A DNA stretch of 64,000 nt. Source: Flavobacteriaceae bacterium PS02334 (GTDB lineage Bacteria > Bacteroidota > Bacteroidia > Flavobacteriales > Flavobacteriaceae). Under the pieces are notes generated by a model. The model saw only the letters and a program-made list of their open reading frames with translations, was not told where the DNA came from and ran no database searches. Below, piece after piece: positions 11,676 through 15,642 of the stretch (the stretch's first letter is position 1; the number at the start of each line of letters is the position of its first letter). Where the stretch lies: contig JASCOH010000001.1 of the NCBI GenBank assembly GCA_029959295.1, positions 868,001 through 932,000 of the forward strand, given 5' to 3'. The translations under genes and the position numbers were made by a program.

Positions 11676-13370
11676 GTGCGAAAATCTAAAGCTTTACAAC
11701 CAGAGGCCAATTTTAAATTTCCAAAAACCCCGACAGGAGTTGAAGGGCTGGATGAAATAACCGAGGGCGGTTTCCCAAAAGGACGTCCTACATTGATTTG
11801 TGGGGGCGCCGGATGCGGCAAGACGCTGCTTTCAATGCAATTTCTAATTAAGGGAATTACAGAATTTGGCGAACCTGGCGTTTTCATGTCTTTTGAAGAG
11901 CCGTCAGATGATTTGTCGCTAAACGTAAAATCATTAGGTTTTGACCTAGAAAAATTAAAATCAGAAAAAAAATTGGTCGTGGATCATGTTCGCGTTGAAC
12001 GTTCAGAAATTGAAGAAGCTGGAGAATATGATCTTGACGGATTATTTGTCAGGTTGGGCTATGCGATCGATACCGTAAAAGCCAAGCGCATTGTTCTTGA
12101 CACATTAGAATCTCTTTTTTCTGGATTAGACAACCAAGCGATTCTTCGTGCTGAACTTCGAAGATTGTTTCATTGGCTGAAAGATCGCGGCGTGACTGCA
12201 GTAATTACAGGAGAACGCGGCGAGGCAACATTGACAAGACAGGGACTTGAAGAATATGTTTCTGATTGTGTCATCATGCTTGATCATCGCGTCATTGAGC
12301 AGGTTTCTACCAGAAGATTGCGCATTATCAAATATAGAGGCTCGACGCACGGAACTAATGAATATCCCTTTTTAATTGATGAAGACGGAATTTCTGTATT
12401 GCCCATTACCTCTTTAAAATTAGACAACGAAGTTTCTTCAGATATTGTTGAGACCGGCGTTCCAGGCTTAAATGAGATGTTTGAAAAAGGCGGTATTTAT
12501 CGCGGCAGCAATATTTTAATTTCAGGAACTGCGGGAACCGCAAAGACTACGATTGCCGCTTATTTTGCCAATGAGCAGTGCCTGAGAAAAGAAAAAACAC
12601 TCTATTTTGCTTTTGAGGAATCGCCACAGCAACTGGTGCGAAACATGAAATCGATTGGAATTGACCTAGAAAAACACATTAAAAACGGCCATCTTGAAAT
12701 TCTTTCCTCGCGACCATCTTTGAACGGACTGGAGCTGCACCTGCTTACGCTAAGAAAAATGATCAAGGAGTTCAAACCGACGACAGTCATTATTGATCCG
12801 ATCAGCAATCTTATCAGCGTGGGAAGCATGCACGAAGTGCAGTCGATGCTCATAAGGCTGATTGACATGCTAAAACTGAACAACATCACGGCACTATTTA
12901 CCTCCTTGAACAAGCATACTGACAAAATAAGACCCGATTTGGCTGAAGAATCTGTTTCTTCTTTAGTAGACACCTGGATTACTGTTCGCGACATGGAAGG
13001 AATCGGAGAACGAAACCGAGGCATTTTTATTATCAAGTCAAGAGGAATGGGCCACTCTAATCAAGTGCGCGAGTTTTTGATTACAAAACAGGGCATCAAG
13101 CTTTTAAATGTCGAACTCGGGCCAAATGGAATCTTGACCGGCACAGCCAGAAAATCGCACGAATTGAAAAAGACAGTTTCAAAATTGAAGCTTCAAGACG
13201 AACTTGACAGAAAAGACCGTGAAATTGCCCGCAGGCGAAAAGTGCTGCAAGCCAATATCGATGCGCTGAAGAACGAATTTGAATCAGCAGTGGAAGAACT
13301 GAACATATTAAAGAAGACTGAAGAGCTTCAAACAATAGCGGCATCAAATAAAGATCCAAGACATAGTTAG
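11676..13370 (+). CDS. kaiC: KaiC-like double-domain RecA-fold ATPase
   Basis: A 564-aa protein with two KaiC domains, starting at GTG. The CI half has Walker A GGAGCGKT (43-50) and the catalytic acidic pair in FMSFEEPSDD. The CII half has G284-TAGTAKT, where the residue before the Walker lysine is Ala rather than Gly, and FAFEESPQQ. Residues S428-S429 (context SVSSLVDTW) align by eye with S431/T432 of cyanobacterial KaiC (ISTITDT), so a phosphorylatable pair is kept. The C-terminal 60-70 residues form a charged coiled coil absent from the classic 519-aa protein. KaiC is a hexameric autokinase and ATPase of circadian or stress timing systems. Two KaiB genes, a kinase and a response regulator follow with gaps of 2-8 bases. 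Confidence 0.9.
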   Translation: MRKSKALQPEANFKFPKTPTGVEGLDEITEGGFPKGRPTLICGGAGCGKTLLSMQFLIKGITEFGEPGVFMSFEEPSDDLSLNVKSLGFDLEKLKSEKKLVVDHVRVERSEIEEAGEYDLDGLFVRLGYAIDTVKAKRIVLDTLESLFSGLDNQAILRAELRRLFHWLKDRGVTAVITGERGEATLTRQGLEEYVSDCVIMLDHRVIEQVSTRRLRIIKYRGSTHGTNEYPFLIDEDGISVLPITSLKLDNEVSSDIVETGVPGLNEMFEKGGIYRGSNILISGTAGTAKTTIAAYFANEQCLRKEKTLYFAFEESPQQLVRNMKSIGIDLEKHIKNGHLEILSSRPSLNGLELHLLTLRKMIKEFKPTTVIIDPISNLISVGSMHEVQSMLIRLIDMLKLNNITALFTSLNKHTDKIRPDLAEESVSSLVDTWITVRDMEGIGERNRGIFIIKSRGMGHSNQVREFLITKQGIKLLNVELGPNGILTGTARKSHELKKTVSKLKLQDELDRKDREIARRRKVLQANIDALKNEFESAVEELNILKKTEELQTIAASNKDPRHS

Positions 13371-13376
13371 AAAGAG

Positions 13377-13667
13377 ATGAAAAAGCAACCTGCGGAGTGG
13401 CAATTATTATTGTATATAGCCGGACAGACTCCAAAATCCATCAAAGCTTTAAGCAACATTAAAAAATATGCAGAAGAACATCTGGCAGGCAAATATTCTA
13501 TTGAAATCATAGACCTGCTGGTAAATCCGCAATTGGCCGCAGGAGATCAAATTTTAGCAGTGCCGACATTAGTTCGAAGATTTCCAGAACCCATCCGAAA
13601 AATTATTGGAGACCTTTCTAACGAAGAAAGAGTGCTCGTGGGACTCAACATCAAACCTTTAAAATAA
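13377..13667 (+). CDS. kaiB: KaiB-like protein 1
   Basis: A 96-aa thioredoxin-like protein close to classical Kai[15 protein letters not shown] at the N terminus, [15 protein letters not shown] middle (here [22 protein letters not shown] with the cis-Pro), and the C-terminal hallmark [19 protein letters not shown]. KaiB is a fold-switching partner that binds the KaiC CI ring and competes with kinases for it. The ATG lies 6 bases after the kaiC stop with AAAGAG just upstream. It is the more canonical of the two KaiB copies in this operon. Confidence 0.92.
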
Positions 13668-13675
13668 AACCCAAC

Positions 13676-13972: not shown

Positions 13973-13975
13973 GCT

Positions 13976-15235
13976 TTGAAAGAAGAAGGAAAAAATATTG
14001 AATCATTGCTTTCAGAAATCGCTGACTTAAAAAGCCAGCTTTTTGAAGCCAACAGCATTATGGATGCTATTAGAGAAGGCGCTGTCGATGCGCTGGTATT
14101 GAATGTTGACGGAAAAGCACAAGTCTATTCGATGGAAAGTGCCGATTATACGTATCGAATTCTAATCGAGAAATTTGGAGAAGGCGCATTGAGCATTTCT
14201 GAAGACGGACTCATTTTATATTGCAATGAATATTTTGCCAATATGATCGGCCTGCCACCAACCTCCATCATTGGAACTTATTTTCAAAAATATGTCGAAT
14301 CTCCTGAAGCTTTTATCCATCTAAAACAGAGCTTAAGAAAAGGGCCGAGCAAGAAAGAATTGCTGTTAAGCTTTAAAGAAAAAAAGATACCTGCTTATAT
14401 TTCGCTGACCGATCTGCATCCTACAGTTGATGCCATTGGAGTTGTAGTTACTGACCTTACTGAAAAAAGAGCACACGAGGAAGTTTTGGTATCCAACCAA
14501 AAAGAACTGGAATCAAAAGTATCAGAACTGAACCAGACCAATAAAAACCTAGAGCAATTTATACATGTAATTTCTCATGATTTAAAAGAACCGCTTCGCA
14601 AGATCTTGACCTATACCTCGCATTTAAACGCAACCAAAGCGCATCTTTTTGCTGAAGGAGAATTAAAAAGCTTAAATGTCATCAATTCTTCGGCATTGCG
14701 ACTCAACTCATTAGTAGATGATTTGGTAAAATATGCTTTTAGCGCAGCCAAAGACGAAGAAGGAGAAGTTGATTTAGACATCGTTCTTGAAGAAGTTTTG
14801 GATGATTTAGAATTGAGCATCAAGGAAAATACGGCCTTCATAGATAGTATGCCAATGCCCAAAATTCAGGGCTCAAAAATTCAGATGCGACAGCTGTTCT
14901 CAAATTTGATTTCAAATGCCATAAAATACAGCAAGCCCGAAGTCAAGCCTGAAATTAAAATTACACATGAAATTATTGATGGTTCTGAGATTCAAGCAAC
15001 TGGAAGAAAATACTACAAAATAGCTATCAGCGATAACGGAATTGGGATTGATTCTATGCATTTGAATAAAATTTTTACTATCTTTCAACGGTTGCATATG
15101 CGCGATGAATATTCTGGAAACGGAATCGGATTGGCAATATGCAGAAAAATAATGGACAACCACCAAGGTAAAATTGATGCCGAAAGCAAAATAGCTCAAG
15201 GCAGTATTTTCAACCTTTATTTTCCGATCAAATAA
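13976..15235 (+). CDS. PAS sensor histidine kinase of the kai-like operon
   Basis: A 419-aa cytoplasmic kinase, starting at TTG. An N-terminal coiled coil (about 1-30) is followed by a degenerate PAS-like segment (MDAIREGAVDALVLN, about 24-60) and a PAS domain (about 60-165). Next come a second coiled coil, a HisKA domain with phospho-acceptor His201 (VISHDLKEP), and a HATPase domain (NLISNAIKYSK, ISDNGIGID, GNGIGLAI). Unlike cyanobacterial SasA it has no N-terminal KaiB-like domain, so any link to KaiC or KaiB must use another surface. The response regulator follows 2 bases downstream and is its likely phosphoryl acceptor. Confidence 0.88.
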   Translation: MKEEGKNIESLLSEIADLKSQLFEANSIMDAIREGAVDALVLNVDGKAQVYSMESADYTYRILIEKFGEGALSISEDGLILYCNEYFANMIGLPPTSIIGTYFQKYVESPEAFIHLKQSLRKGPSKKELLLSFKEKKIPAYISLTDLHPTVDAIGVVVTDLTEKRAHEEVLVSNQKELESKVSELNQTNKNLEQFIHVISHDLKEPLRKILTYTSHLNATKAHLFAEGELKSLNVINSSALRLNSLVDDLVKYAFSAAKDEEGEVDLDIVLEEVLDDLELSIKENTAFIDSMPMPKIQGSKIQMRQLFSNLISNAIKYSKPEVKPEIKITHEIIDGSEIQATGRKYYKIAISDNGIGIDSMHLNKIFTIFQRLHMRDEYSGNGIGLAICRKIMDNHQGKIDAESKIAQGSIFNLYFPIK

Positions 15236-15237
15236 AA

Positions 15238-15642
15238 ATGAAGCAACAAAAACTGCATATTCTTATCGCTGAAGATGACATTGATGATGGAGAAATCATT
15301 CAGGAAAGTTTTGCCAGGCATCCCGCATTCTTAAATGTCGACATGGTAAAAAATGGGCAGGAACTGCTTAATTTTTTAAAAAGCTCTAAAGACATTCCTG
15401 ATATCATCTTGACAGATATCAACATGCCCATATTGAATGGAATCGAAGCTTTGGCAGAAATTCACGAAGATTCAATCTTGAGAAATATTCCTGCATTTGT
15501 GTATTCTACTGCTATAAATCCGTCTTATGAAGCCAAATGCAAAGAACTGGGCACAAAAGGTTTTTTAATCAAGCCGTTTCAGCTGGAAGAATTTTATGAA
15601 ATTCCGAATCGCATTCTTTATATGCTGGGACTGAAAGGCTAG
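15238..15642 (+). CDS. Stand-alone receiver-domain response regulator
   Basis: A 134-aa single REC domain of the Rcp1-like group that pairs with bacteriophytochrome-type HisKA kinases. The acidic pair is E12/D13-D14, the phospho-acceptor is D60 in ILTDINMP, the switch residue is S90 or T91, and the conserved lysine is K112 in LIKPF. There is no DNA-binding or enzymatic output domain, so output would go through protein contacts or a phosphorelay. It is the last gene of the kai-like operon, with its start 2 bases after the kinase stop. Confidence 0.88.
   Translation: MKQQKLHILIAEDDIDDGEIIQESFARHPAFLNVDMVKNGQELLNFLKSSKDIPDIILTDINMPILNGIEALAEIHEDSILRNIPAFVYSTAINPSYEAKCKELGTKGFLIKPFQLEEFYEIPNRILYMLGLKG

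Follow-up and report, generated by a model that had tools for sequence, protein, structure and literature searches.

A five-gene kai operon with two classes of KaiB and a kai-linked kinase module in a Flavobacteriaceae genome

Organisation and conservation of the kai operon

The stretch of DNA considered here (the window: 64,000 nucleotides, positions 868,001 to 932,000 of contig JASCOH010000001.1, assembly GCA_029959295.1, of Flavobacteriaceae bacterium PS02334) carries on its forward strand a five-gene kai operon, composed of kaiC, two kaiB genes, and genes encoding a histidine kinase and a receiver-only response regulator. The kaiC gene (11676-13370) has a GTG start and encodes a protein of 564 amino acids, a putative double-domain ATPase and autokinase of the KaiC2 type that is matched in two stretches by the Pfam KaiC family (389.6 bits). 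It is followed by kaiB1 (13377-13667, 96 amino acids) and kaiB2 (13676-13972, 98 amino acids), whose products score 84.2 and 74.0 bits against the Pfam KaiB family (cut-off 27 bits). The kinase gene (13976-15235, TTG start, 419 amino acids) encodes a cap-PAS-HisKA-HATPase_c protein with H201 as predicted phospho-acceptor, and the last gene (15238-15642, 134 amino acids) a response regulator (Pfam Response_reg, 67.9 bits) with D60 as predicted phospho-acceptor. The four intergenic gaps measure, in order, 6, 8, 3 and 2 bases, and the coordinates bear out the single packed unit with gaps of 2 to 8 bases that had been proposed in an initial annotation made from the sequence. Its claim of two different KaiB proteins also stands, as both exceed the Pfam cut-off and the two separate in phylogenetic trees.

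A scan of the whole host genome (G000; 4.59 Mb in 69 contigs) found a single protein with two strong KaiC domains, and KaiB1 and KaiB2 as the only KaiB matches above the cut-off. None of the five operon genes has a Pfam match to KaiA, as the initial annotation had reported for the unit (the remainder of the genome was not searched for KaiA), and the unit thus does not have the arrangement of the canonical KaiABC clock, with kaiA beside kaiBC. The initial annotation was right to place it among the reduced versions of the Kai system.

A KaiC-based scan with one genome per species gave 98 loci, of which the best 80 were analysed. Fifty-eight are of the Flavobacterium type, one of them being that of F. 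johnsoniae CI04 (L034). Five go by other names, namely L025, L033 and L048 (Flavobacteriaceae bacterium), L038 (Bacteroidetes bacterium) and L059 ([Flexibacter]). The order kaiC-kaiB-kaiB-kinase-receiver is kept in 55 of these 58, with a largest gap of 17 bases, which argues that the gene neighbourhood is not due to chance; the receiver was not detected in three of the 58. The initial annotation had suggested looking for this five-gene order in other Bacteroidota and would have given up its reading had the neighbouring genes not been conserved, an outcome that did not occur. The other 22 loci belong to Bacteroidota (including Hymenobacter), Lentisphaerota, Verrucomicrobiota, Chloroflexota, Pseudomonadota, Gemmatimonadota, Patescibacteria, Ignavibacteriota and Cyanobacteriota, and 19 of them have the order kaiC-kaiB-kaiB-kinase, three with a second kinase match behind. 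Under the rule of at most 300 bases between neighbours two more end at kaiB-kaiB: L091, where the contig ends, and L078, where a module protein of the kind described below follows after about 320 bases. The remaining locus, L083, has a single KaiB. The operon is therefore conserved where it is present and yet patchy in its occurrence, KaiB being found above the cut-off in 37 of 395 sampled genomes of the host phylum and in 8 of 24 of the host genus, so that the operon is dispensable.

A KaiC of the KaiC2 type

The window KaiC exceeds the cut-off of the NCBIfam family NF006799 (729.7 bits; cut-off 408) and stays below that of TIGR02655 (346 bits; cut-off 546), and its nearest solved structures are those of the Rhodobacter sphaeroides KaiC (8dba/8fwi, E-value 1e-183). 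The two Walker A motifs, GGAGCGKT in CI (residues 43-50, 11802-11825) and GTAGTAKT in CII (residues 284-291, 12525-12548), are intact, and their lysine is found in all 81 KaiC sequences aligned, as are the glutamate pairs 74/75 and 314/315; this alignment was gathered by similarity to the window KaiC and is biased accordingly. The predicted phosphosites S428 and S429 (12957-12962) align with S413 and S414 of R. sphaeroides, the first position being serine in 79 of the 81 sequences and the second in all of them. The initial annotation was thus right in assigning to this protein both Walker sites and a Ser-Ser pair. The protein also keeps W434, V464 and R465 and, with respect to a reported allosteric network, differs at three positions (T436, F451 and I453). 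Its C-terminal tail (residues 479-564, 13110-13367) aligns with the R. sphaeroides KaiC up to residue 548.

In a KaiC tree of 58 rows the window and R. sphaeroides proteins fall in one group of 51 rows (support 100/99), in which the phosphosite pair is SS in 49 rows, PS in one and TS in one, and in which 77 to 110 residues follow position 478 in 48 rows. In the seven rows outside this group the pair is ST (six) or MT (one) and 20 to 37 residues follow. With two KaiC domains bearing Walker motifs and glutamate pairs, a Ser-Ser pair, 86 residues after position 478 (the KaiC2 type being characterised by a C-terminal extension of about 50 residues) and this placement in the tree, the window KaiC is, as judged from its sequence, of the KaiC2 type and groups with the R. 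sphaeroides KaiC.

The R. sphaeroides KaiC autophosphorylates in the absence of KaiA owing to an exposed A loop, its tail forms a coiled coil that links two hexamers and is required for fast dephosphorylation, and the cue to which it responds is the ATP/ADP ratio (PMC10076222; this and the other PMC sources are cited from excerpts). By homology, the window KaiC may likewise be phosphorylated without KaiA, form a dodecamer and respond to ATP/ADP, and this ratio would be the best-grounded cue for the system. The timing by light, redox state or nutrients that the initial annotation had raised is conjectural. As a self-phosphorylating member of the KaiC2 type is already known, the lack of KaiA in the unit is to be expected, a point that had been missed by the initial annotation.

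Three Flavobacteriaceae genomes (G234, G130 and G367; loci L133, L134 and L147) encode KaiC2-type proteins that have lost the tail, with 6 to 10 residues beyond position 478; two of these loci, L133 and L134, are also without KaiB2.

Two classes of KaiB

KaiB1 and KaiB2 appear from their sequences to belong to two old classes. First- and second-position KaiB proteins separate in both KaiB trees that were computed. In the larger one, the bootstrap of which had not settled, the KaiB proteins of KaiC2-type operons are grouped (98/98, 97 rows), with the KaiB of L140 outside, and class 1 is a clade inside that group (98/92, 47 rows) which includes KaiB1 and the R. sphaeroides KaiB. Class 2 does not come out as a single clade, and the term is used here for the KaiC2-operon group minus class 1; its Flavobacterium members, among them the divergent KaiB2, lie on a long branch. 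Two cyanobacterial KaiB proteins stand beside class 1 in the first tree (88/85) and outside both classes in the larger one. The best solved match of KaiB1 is the R. sphaeroides KaiB (8fwj). Neither KaiB1 nor KaiB2 reaches the NCBIfam KaiB equivalog cut-offs, and no PHROGs family was found for KaiB2.

The classes differ at a position implicated in fold switching (G88 of Synechococcus elongatus KaiB, G89 of T. elongatus KaiB), where the double mutant G89A/D91R was found mostly in the binding-competent fold (PMC8059507, PMC5520375). Glycine occupies this position in 99 of 99 class-1 proteins compared, in 28 of 43 class-2 proteins from outside Flavobacterium and in none of 59 Flavobacterium class-2 proteins, which have isoleucine (56, including Ile94 of KaiB2), leucine (2) or tyrosine (1). 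KaiB2 retains many of the positions that are near-invariant in class 1. Its AF2 model (pLDDT 86) is thioredoxin-like, and the structures nearest to the model are Legionella Lpp1115, the KaiC-bound R. sphaeroides KaiB and the fold-switched T. elongatus KaiB. Lacking the glycine, KaiB2 may be held in the binding-competent fold, and the two classes offer a natural experiment on fold switching.

One genome with a full operon encodes an additional class-2-like KaiB (L155, G387:C1), and neither kaiC nor module was found beside it in 5 kb of DNA. Many genomes of the order of G408 (e.g. G861, G885 and G912) contain a reading frame of about 230-270 amino acids that matches KaiB weakly (about 29-41 bits); these frames appear to form a family with a KaiB-like domain.

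The operon kinase and its cap-PAS module

In the window kinase, Pfam recognises HisKA (34.3 bits) and HATPase_c (90.4 bits), with PAS under the cut-off, and PHROGs gives broad families only. H201, the ATPase boxes and, in the receiver, D60 and K112 were assigned by position, and the two proteins have the make-up of a two-component output pair. The Response_reg domain covers residues 8-120 of the 134 of the receiver, leaving it without the KaiA-like C-terminal domain of the KaiA3-type chimera, a receiver joined to a KaiA-like domain (PMC11372060). No KaiB or thioredoxin domain was found in the kinase by Pfam or in the AF2 model of residues 1-180, in agreement with the statement of the initial annotation that it lacks the KaiB-like domain of SasA, which is fused to the kinase at its N-terminus.

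The kinase does bear an N-terminal clock-linked module of another kind than that of SasA, which had escaped the initial annotation. The N-termini of the operon kinases align over about 120 residues, comprising a helix, the motifs AIRxGxVDALV and YSLExADxxYRxLIExMxEGA, and the entry into a PAS domain. In the window protein the cap (residues 18-66, 14027-14173), whose conserved residues include G35, D38, Y60 and R61, was delimited from alignments A1/A2, and the PAS domain (residues 58-165, 14147-14470) from Pfam and PDB profile matches and the AF2 model. The Pfam matches to this N-terminus are PAS families from residue 60 or later, plus one at chance level, and the PDB matches are mostly PAS proteins; the model of the first 180 residues gives a helix at 4-33, two low-confidence strands and then the PAS domain. 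Conservation amounts to 2.4-2.6 bits at residues 31-100 (2.5-2.6 at 31-66), against 1.6 bits at 101-165. In the host genome the module profile scores 160 bits on the operon kinase and 25.8 bits on the next protein.

The module is found ahead of different outputs. In ten proteins scanned, the domains behind it include HisKA/HATPase_c, the same with receivers (L085, L086 and L135), and GGDEF-EAL (L078 and L083), and the R. sphaeroides KD131 kinase (annotated HWE) has a divergent copy of the module, at 78.6 bits, with LRRRLHEAEETLKAIRQGDVDALVV. A conserved head with varying tails would be expected if the module reads or senses an upstream signal that these proteins have in common. As a separate observation, the module-GGDEF-EAL fusions suggest that some such timers may act through cyclic di-GMP.

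Linkage of the module to KaiB

The distribution of the module was examined in 982 genomes belonging to four sets: the host phylum (395), the class of a Methylobacterium genome (G407, Alphaproteobacteria; 240), the phylum of a Coleofasciculus genome (G412, Cyanobacteria; 146) and the order of a Methylococcaceae genome (G408; 201). The profile was built from operon kinases only and the thresholds differ between samples; in addition, G000, G407, G412, G408, G400 and G402 were chosen or known for having the operon, and related genomes are not independent. On these terms the module is present in 68 genomes, all of which have a KaiB above the cut-off, compared with 176 of the 982 that have such a KaiB.

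In the host phylum the module (E-value 1e-15) is found in 28 genomes, each time with a KaiB that ends at most 280 bases upstream. In the Alphaproteobacteria the cap occurs in three genomes, directly downstream of a KaiB in all three, and there is one further PAS-only match. All ten cyanobacterial genomes with the cap have a KaiB on the same contig, at 46-817 bases in eight (among the KaiB matches listed) and as kaiC-kaiB-kaiB-module in the DNA fetched for the other two; five PAS-only matches besides do not start before model position 43. In the order of G408 the module occupies 31 places in 27 genomes, all with KaiB, which lies less than 1 kb away at 25 places and less than 3 kb away at 28; here, too, there are PAS-only matches besides. 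A plain tblastn search of plasmids with the window kinase N-terminus matched Pararhizobium only. The module thus sits almost only beside clock genes in the sampled genomes.

Conversely, nine genomes of the host phylum have KaiB without the module, two of them (G177 and G217) holding KaiB fragments only. The other seven were read and show KaiB alone, between other kinases or with an ST-type KaiC, or else a KaiC2-like KaiC with no module in 8 kb (L140, L141 and L143).

Which KaiB accompanies the module was also considered. At seven examined loci, L127-L132 (six genomes of one genus) and L083, the module is accompanied by a single KaiB from outside class 1. Partial distance correlations with the module, given KaiC and the other KaiB, were slightly higher for KaiB2 than for KaiB1 among 34 operons (0.16 vs 0.10), the 58 Flavobacterium-type loci (0.38 vs 0.24) and a mixed set of 40 (0.40 vs 0.14), in a procedure whose permutations ignore relatedness.

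Three further ideas were abandoned. The module is not confined to class-2 KaiB, as R. sphaeroides and three plasmid relatives have a class-1 KaiB only, with a weaker module. No fusion of KaiB2 with the kinase (a "Rosetta" SasA) was seen in the frames around KaiB matches in 18 genomes, some long ones of which were opened. These proved to encode a protein resembling SasA, a KaiB with an extended N-terminus and, at L122, a KaiB truncated where the contig ends. Finally, no second KaiB is hidden at L133 and L134: the interval of about 245 bases gives no match to KaiB, and each of the three frames of the strand concerned is interrupted by stop codons. The missing KaiB2 of these loci was presumably lost.

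A proposed KaiA-independent timer and the alternatives

From the gene content and its kept order, the KaiC2 membership, the intact catalytic and phosphosite residues, the two KaiB classes and the linkage of the module to kai genes, we propose, with a probability of roughly 0.55, that the unit is a timer of the KaiC2/KaiB kind that works independently of KaiA and has an output line of its own. By analogy with R. sphaeroides, KaiC would form a double ring, phosphorylate itself on S428/S429 and track the ATP/ADP ratio; KaiA would not be needed, since an exposed A loop would permit phosphorylation, and the tail would join the rings and promote dephosphorylation. KaiB1 would act as an ordinary KaiB, accelerating both ATP turnover and dephosphorylation once bound to the CI ring, and KaiB2, a second and diverged KaiB, should still dock on the CI ring, possibly in a binding-competent fold. 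The cap-PAS module of the kinase would read in what state KaiC/KaiB is, possibly by way of KaiB2, and the signal would go from the kinase to the receiver, presumably by phosphotransfer. KaiB2 and the kinase might then be the two-protein equivalent of the one-protein SasA. Anything that concerns day length would have to be inferred.

No established answer was found in the literature examined as to how KaiBC timers without KaiA signal time to the cell, and a module that is almost exclusive to the neighbourhood of kaiB, ahead of exchangeable outputs, is a concrete candidate for this missing link; Flavobacterium, moreover, is a non-photosynthetic host for such a timer. That KaiB2 serves as adaptor between the KaiC ring and the kinase module is a tentative idea suggested by the sequences, and less likely than not. 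We would advance with similar reserve the broader proposal that a dedicated reader module, made up of a helix, the VDALV/YR cap and PAS, is common to the KaiC2/KaiB timers of many phyla and forms the N-terminus of the downstream signalling protein. It would be coupled to the ring through a second, permanently binding-competent KaiB class, as a two-protein counterpart of SasA that could be combined with either kinase or cyclic-di-GMP outputs. What deserves further study is the kai-linked kinase module and, with it, the second class of KaiB.

Several observations weigh against the timer with a dedicated reader. One module copy (G989:C92) has no KaiB in the surrounding 12 kb of a 91-kb contig and is a real exception, in a genome with another, KaiB-linked copy. 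For a second copy (G983:C76) the contig ends 870 bases upstream, and no KaiB lies within that distance. A contig break is likely in G882, with the module at 400 bases from the end of one contig and a KaiB pair at about 330 from the end of another. In G678 (L161, L171) two KaiB proteins and a module protein have no kaiC in about 10 kb upstream. At L141 and L143, both of the KaiC2 type, KaiB is of class 1 and the 8 kb covered contain no module protein. Modules accompany a class-1 KaiB alone at L133 and L134 and, by profile score, at L163-L166, so that KaiB2 is not required for the module. The R. sphaeroides KaiB, which was outside the 99 sequences compared, has asparagine at the fold-switch position, making the loss of glycine only a hint as to the fold of KaiB2, and AF2 tends to give the thioredoxin-like fold for KaiB anyway, so that the model of KaiB2 proves little. 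The module, finally, includes a PAS domain, which might bind a small ligand instead.

Some of these observations suit a scheme in which KaiB2 never touches the kinase. KaiB2 would then bind KaiC as a second ligand whose kinetics differ from those of KaiB1, and competition between the two for the CI ring would tune delay or amplitude; the kinase would read KaiC or KaiB1 directly. The modules with class-1 KaiB alone and the near-invariant positions kept by KaiB2 would fit such a ligand; we nevertheless find it doubtful, given the seven single-KaiB module loci with a non-class-1 KaiB and the distance correlations, somewhat higher for KaiB2. In another scheme the module is an input sensor for oxygen, redox state, a metabolite or light, placed beside the timer or setting it. 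Its PAS part does resemble known PAS sensors, DosP and photoactive yellow protein among them, and a role in relaying a redox signal to KaiBC has been suggested for the R. sphaeroides operon kinase (PMC5520375). Mean conservation, however, peaks ahead of the PAS core and where this core begins, and the module remains linked to kai genes whatever the output domain behind it, for which reasons we regard a sensor as improbable.

The timer itself may be questioned, and the view that the unit switches with stress or energy state, without any part in timing, has a serious chance of being correct, if somewhat short of even. M. extorquens kaiC mutants, one of them in the kaiC1-kaiB2-kaiB1-kaiR1 cluster, had altered resistance to ultraviolet light (PMC8069551), and a dispensable operon, patchy even within the host genus, would suit such a function. 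An hourglass driven by ATP/ADP could yield the same phenotypes, however, so that these data are compatible with the timer as well. A chance neighbourhood or a decaying operon is hardly conceivable, as 55 of the 58 Flavobacterium-type loci have all five genes in the same order, with gaps of 17 bases at most, and the key residues are intact.

Neighbouring features

Divergently upstream of the operon lies a gene for a histidine kinase of 1030 amino acids with several PAS domains (8121-11213, reverse strand). The window also contains a tRNA-Thr gene (24543-24617, reverse strand) and a Flavo-1 small RNA (38322-38401, forward strand; Rfam RF01705, 50.8 bits).

Comparison with known systems

Our literature search brought up neither an experiment on the kai operon of a Flavobacterium nor anything that we recognised as describing the cap-PAS module, which has no name to search by, or the two KaiB classes. 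Bacteroidetes have been reported with only KaiB2/KaiC2-like proteins (PMC5520375, where KaiB2 is a family name and does not designate the window kaiB2), and KaiB/KaiC were called rare among Bacteroidota in a study of Dyadobacter (PMC11573002). Clusters of kaiC-kaiB with a kinase or GGDEF/EAL gene downstream (PMC3164672) and kaiC-kaiB-PAS/histidine kinase operons in Rhodopseudomonas palustris and R. sphaeroides (PMC4794148) have been described.

With the cyanobacterial KaiABC-SasA-RpaA clock the window shares homologous KaiC and KaiB proteins and a kinase output line. It differs from this clock in having no KaiA in the unit, a KaiC with SS in place of ST and a long tail, a kinase without a KaiB-like domain and a receiver without a further domain. 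Within the cyanobacteria, Coleofasciculus sp. LEGE 07092 (L090, L123-L126) has a KaiC2-type operon with two KaiB proteins and a module kinase, beside a SasA-like kinase that does have the N-terminal KaiB-like domain, other copies of KaiB and KaiC, and an N-terminally extended KaiB.

In Ramlibacter, KaiC is likewise followed by a kinase (Nt_HK), whose conserved and distinctive N-terminus has been put forward as a KaiC-binding part (PMC3164672); there is no KaiB, unlike in the window, and the RtaNt domain is known to us by description only. The proto-circadian timer of R. palustris has the same kaiC-kaiB-PAS kinase gene set (PMC4794148), with one KaiB in the excerpt, and was also compared by description. 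The four-gene order with two KaiB genes was already known from Methylobacterium, and kaiC-kaiB-kaiB-kinase is widespread, which the initial annotation had overlooked. The reference case is the kaiC1-kaiB2-kaiB1-kaiR1 cluster of Methylorubrum (Methylobacterium) extorquens AM1, whose KaiC1 is phosphorylated on conserved serines (PMC8069551); compared by description only, it differs from the window in its alphaproteobacterial host and in that no separate receiver gene is named in the excerpt. In its relative M. trifolii (L084) the order is kaiC-kaiB-kaiB-kinase, and the kinase bears the module.

Lastly, the operon on plasmid pRSKD131A of R. sphaeroides KD131 (Rhodobacter/Cereibacter) differs from that of the window in its one class-1 KaiB, its HWE-annotated kinase and the lack of a receiver gene behind, and resembles it in a KaiC of the KaiC2 type with a Ser-Ser pair and a long tail and in a kinase gene directly downstream that carries a divergent copy of the module.

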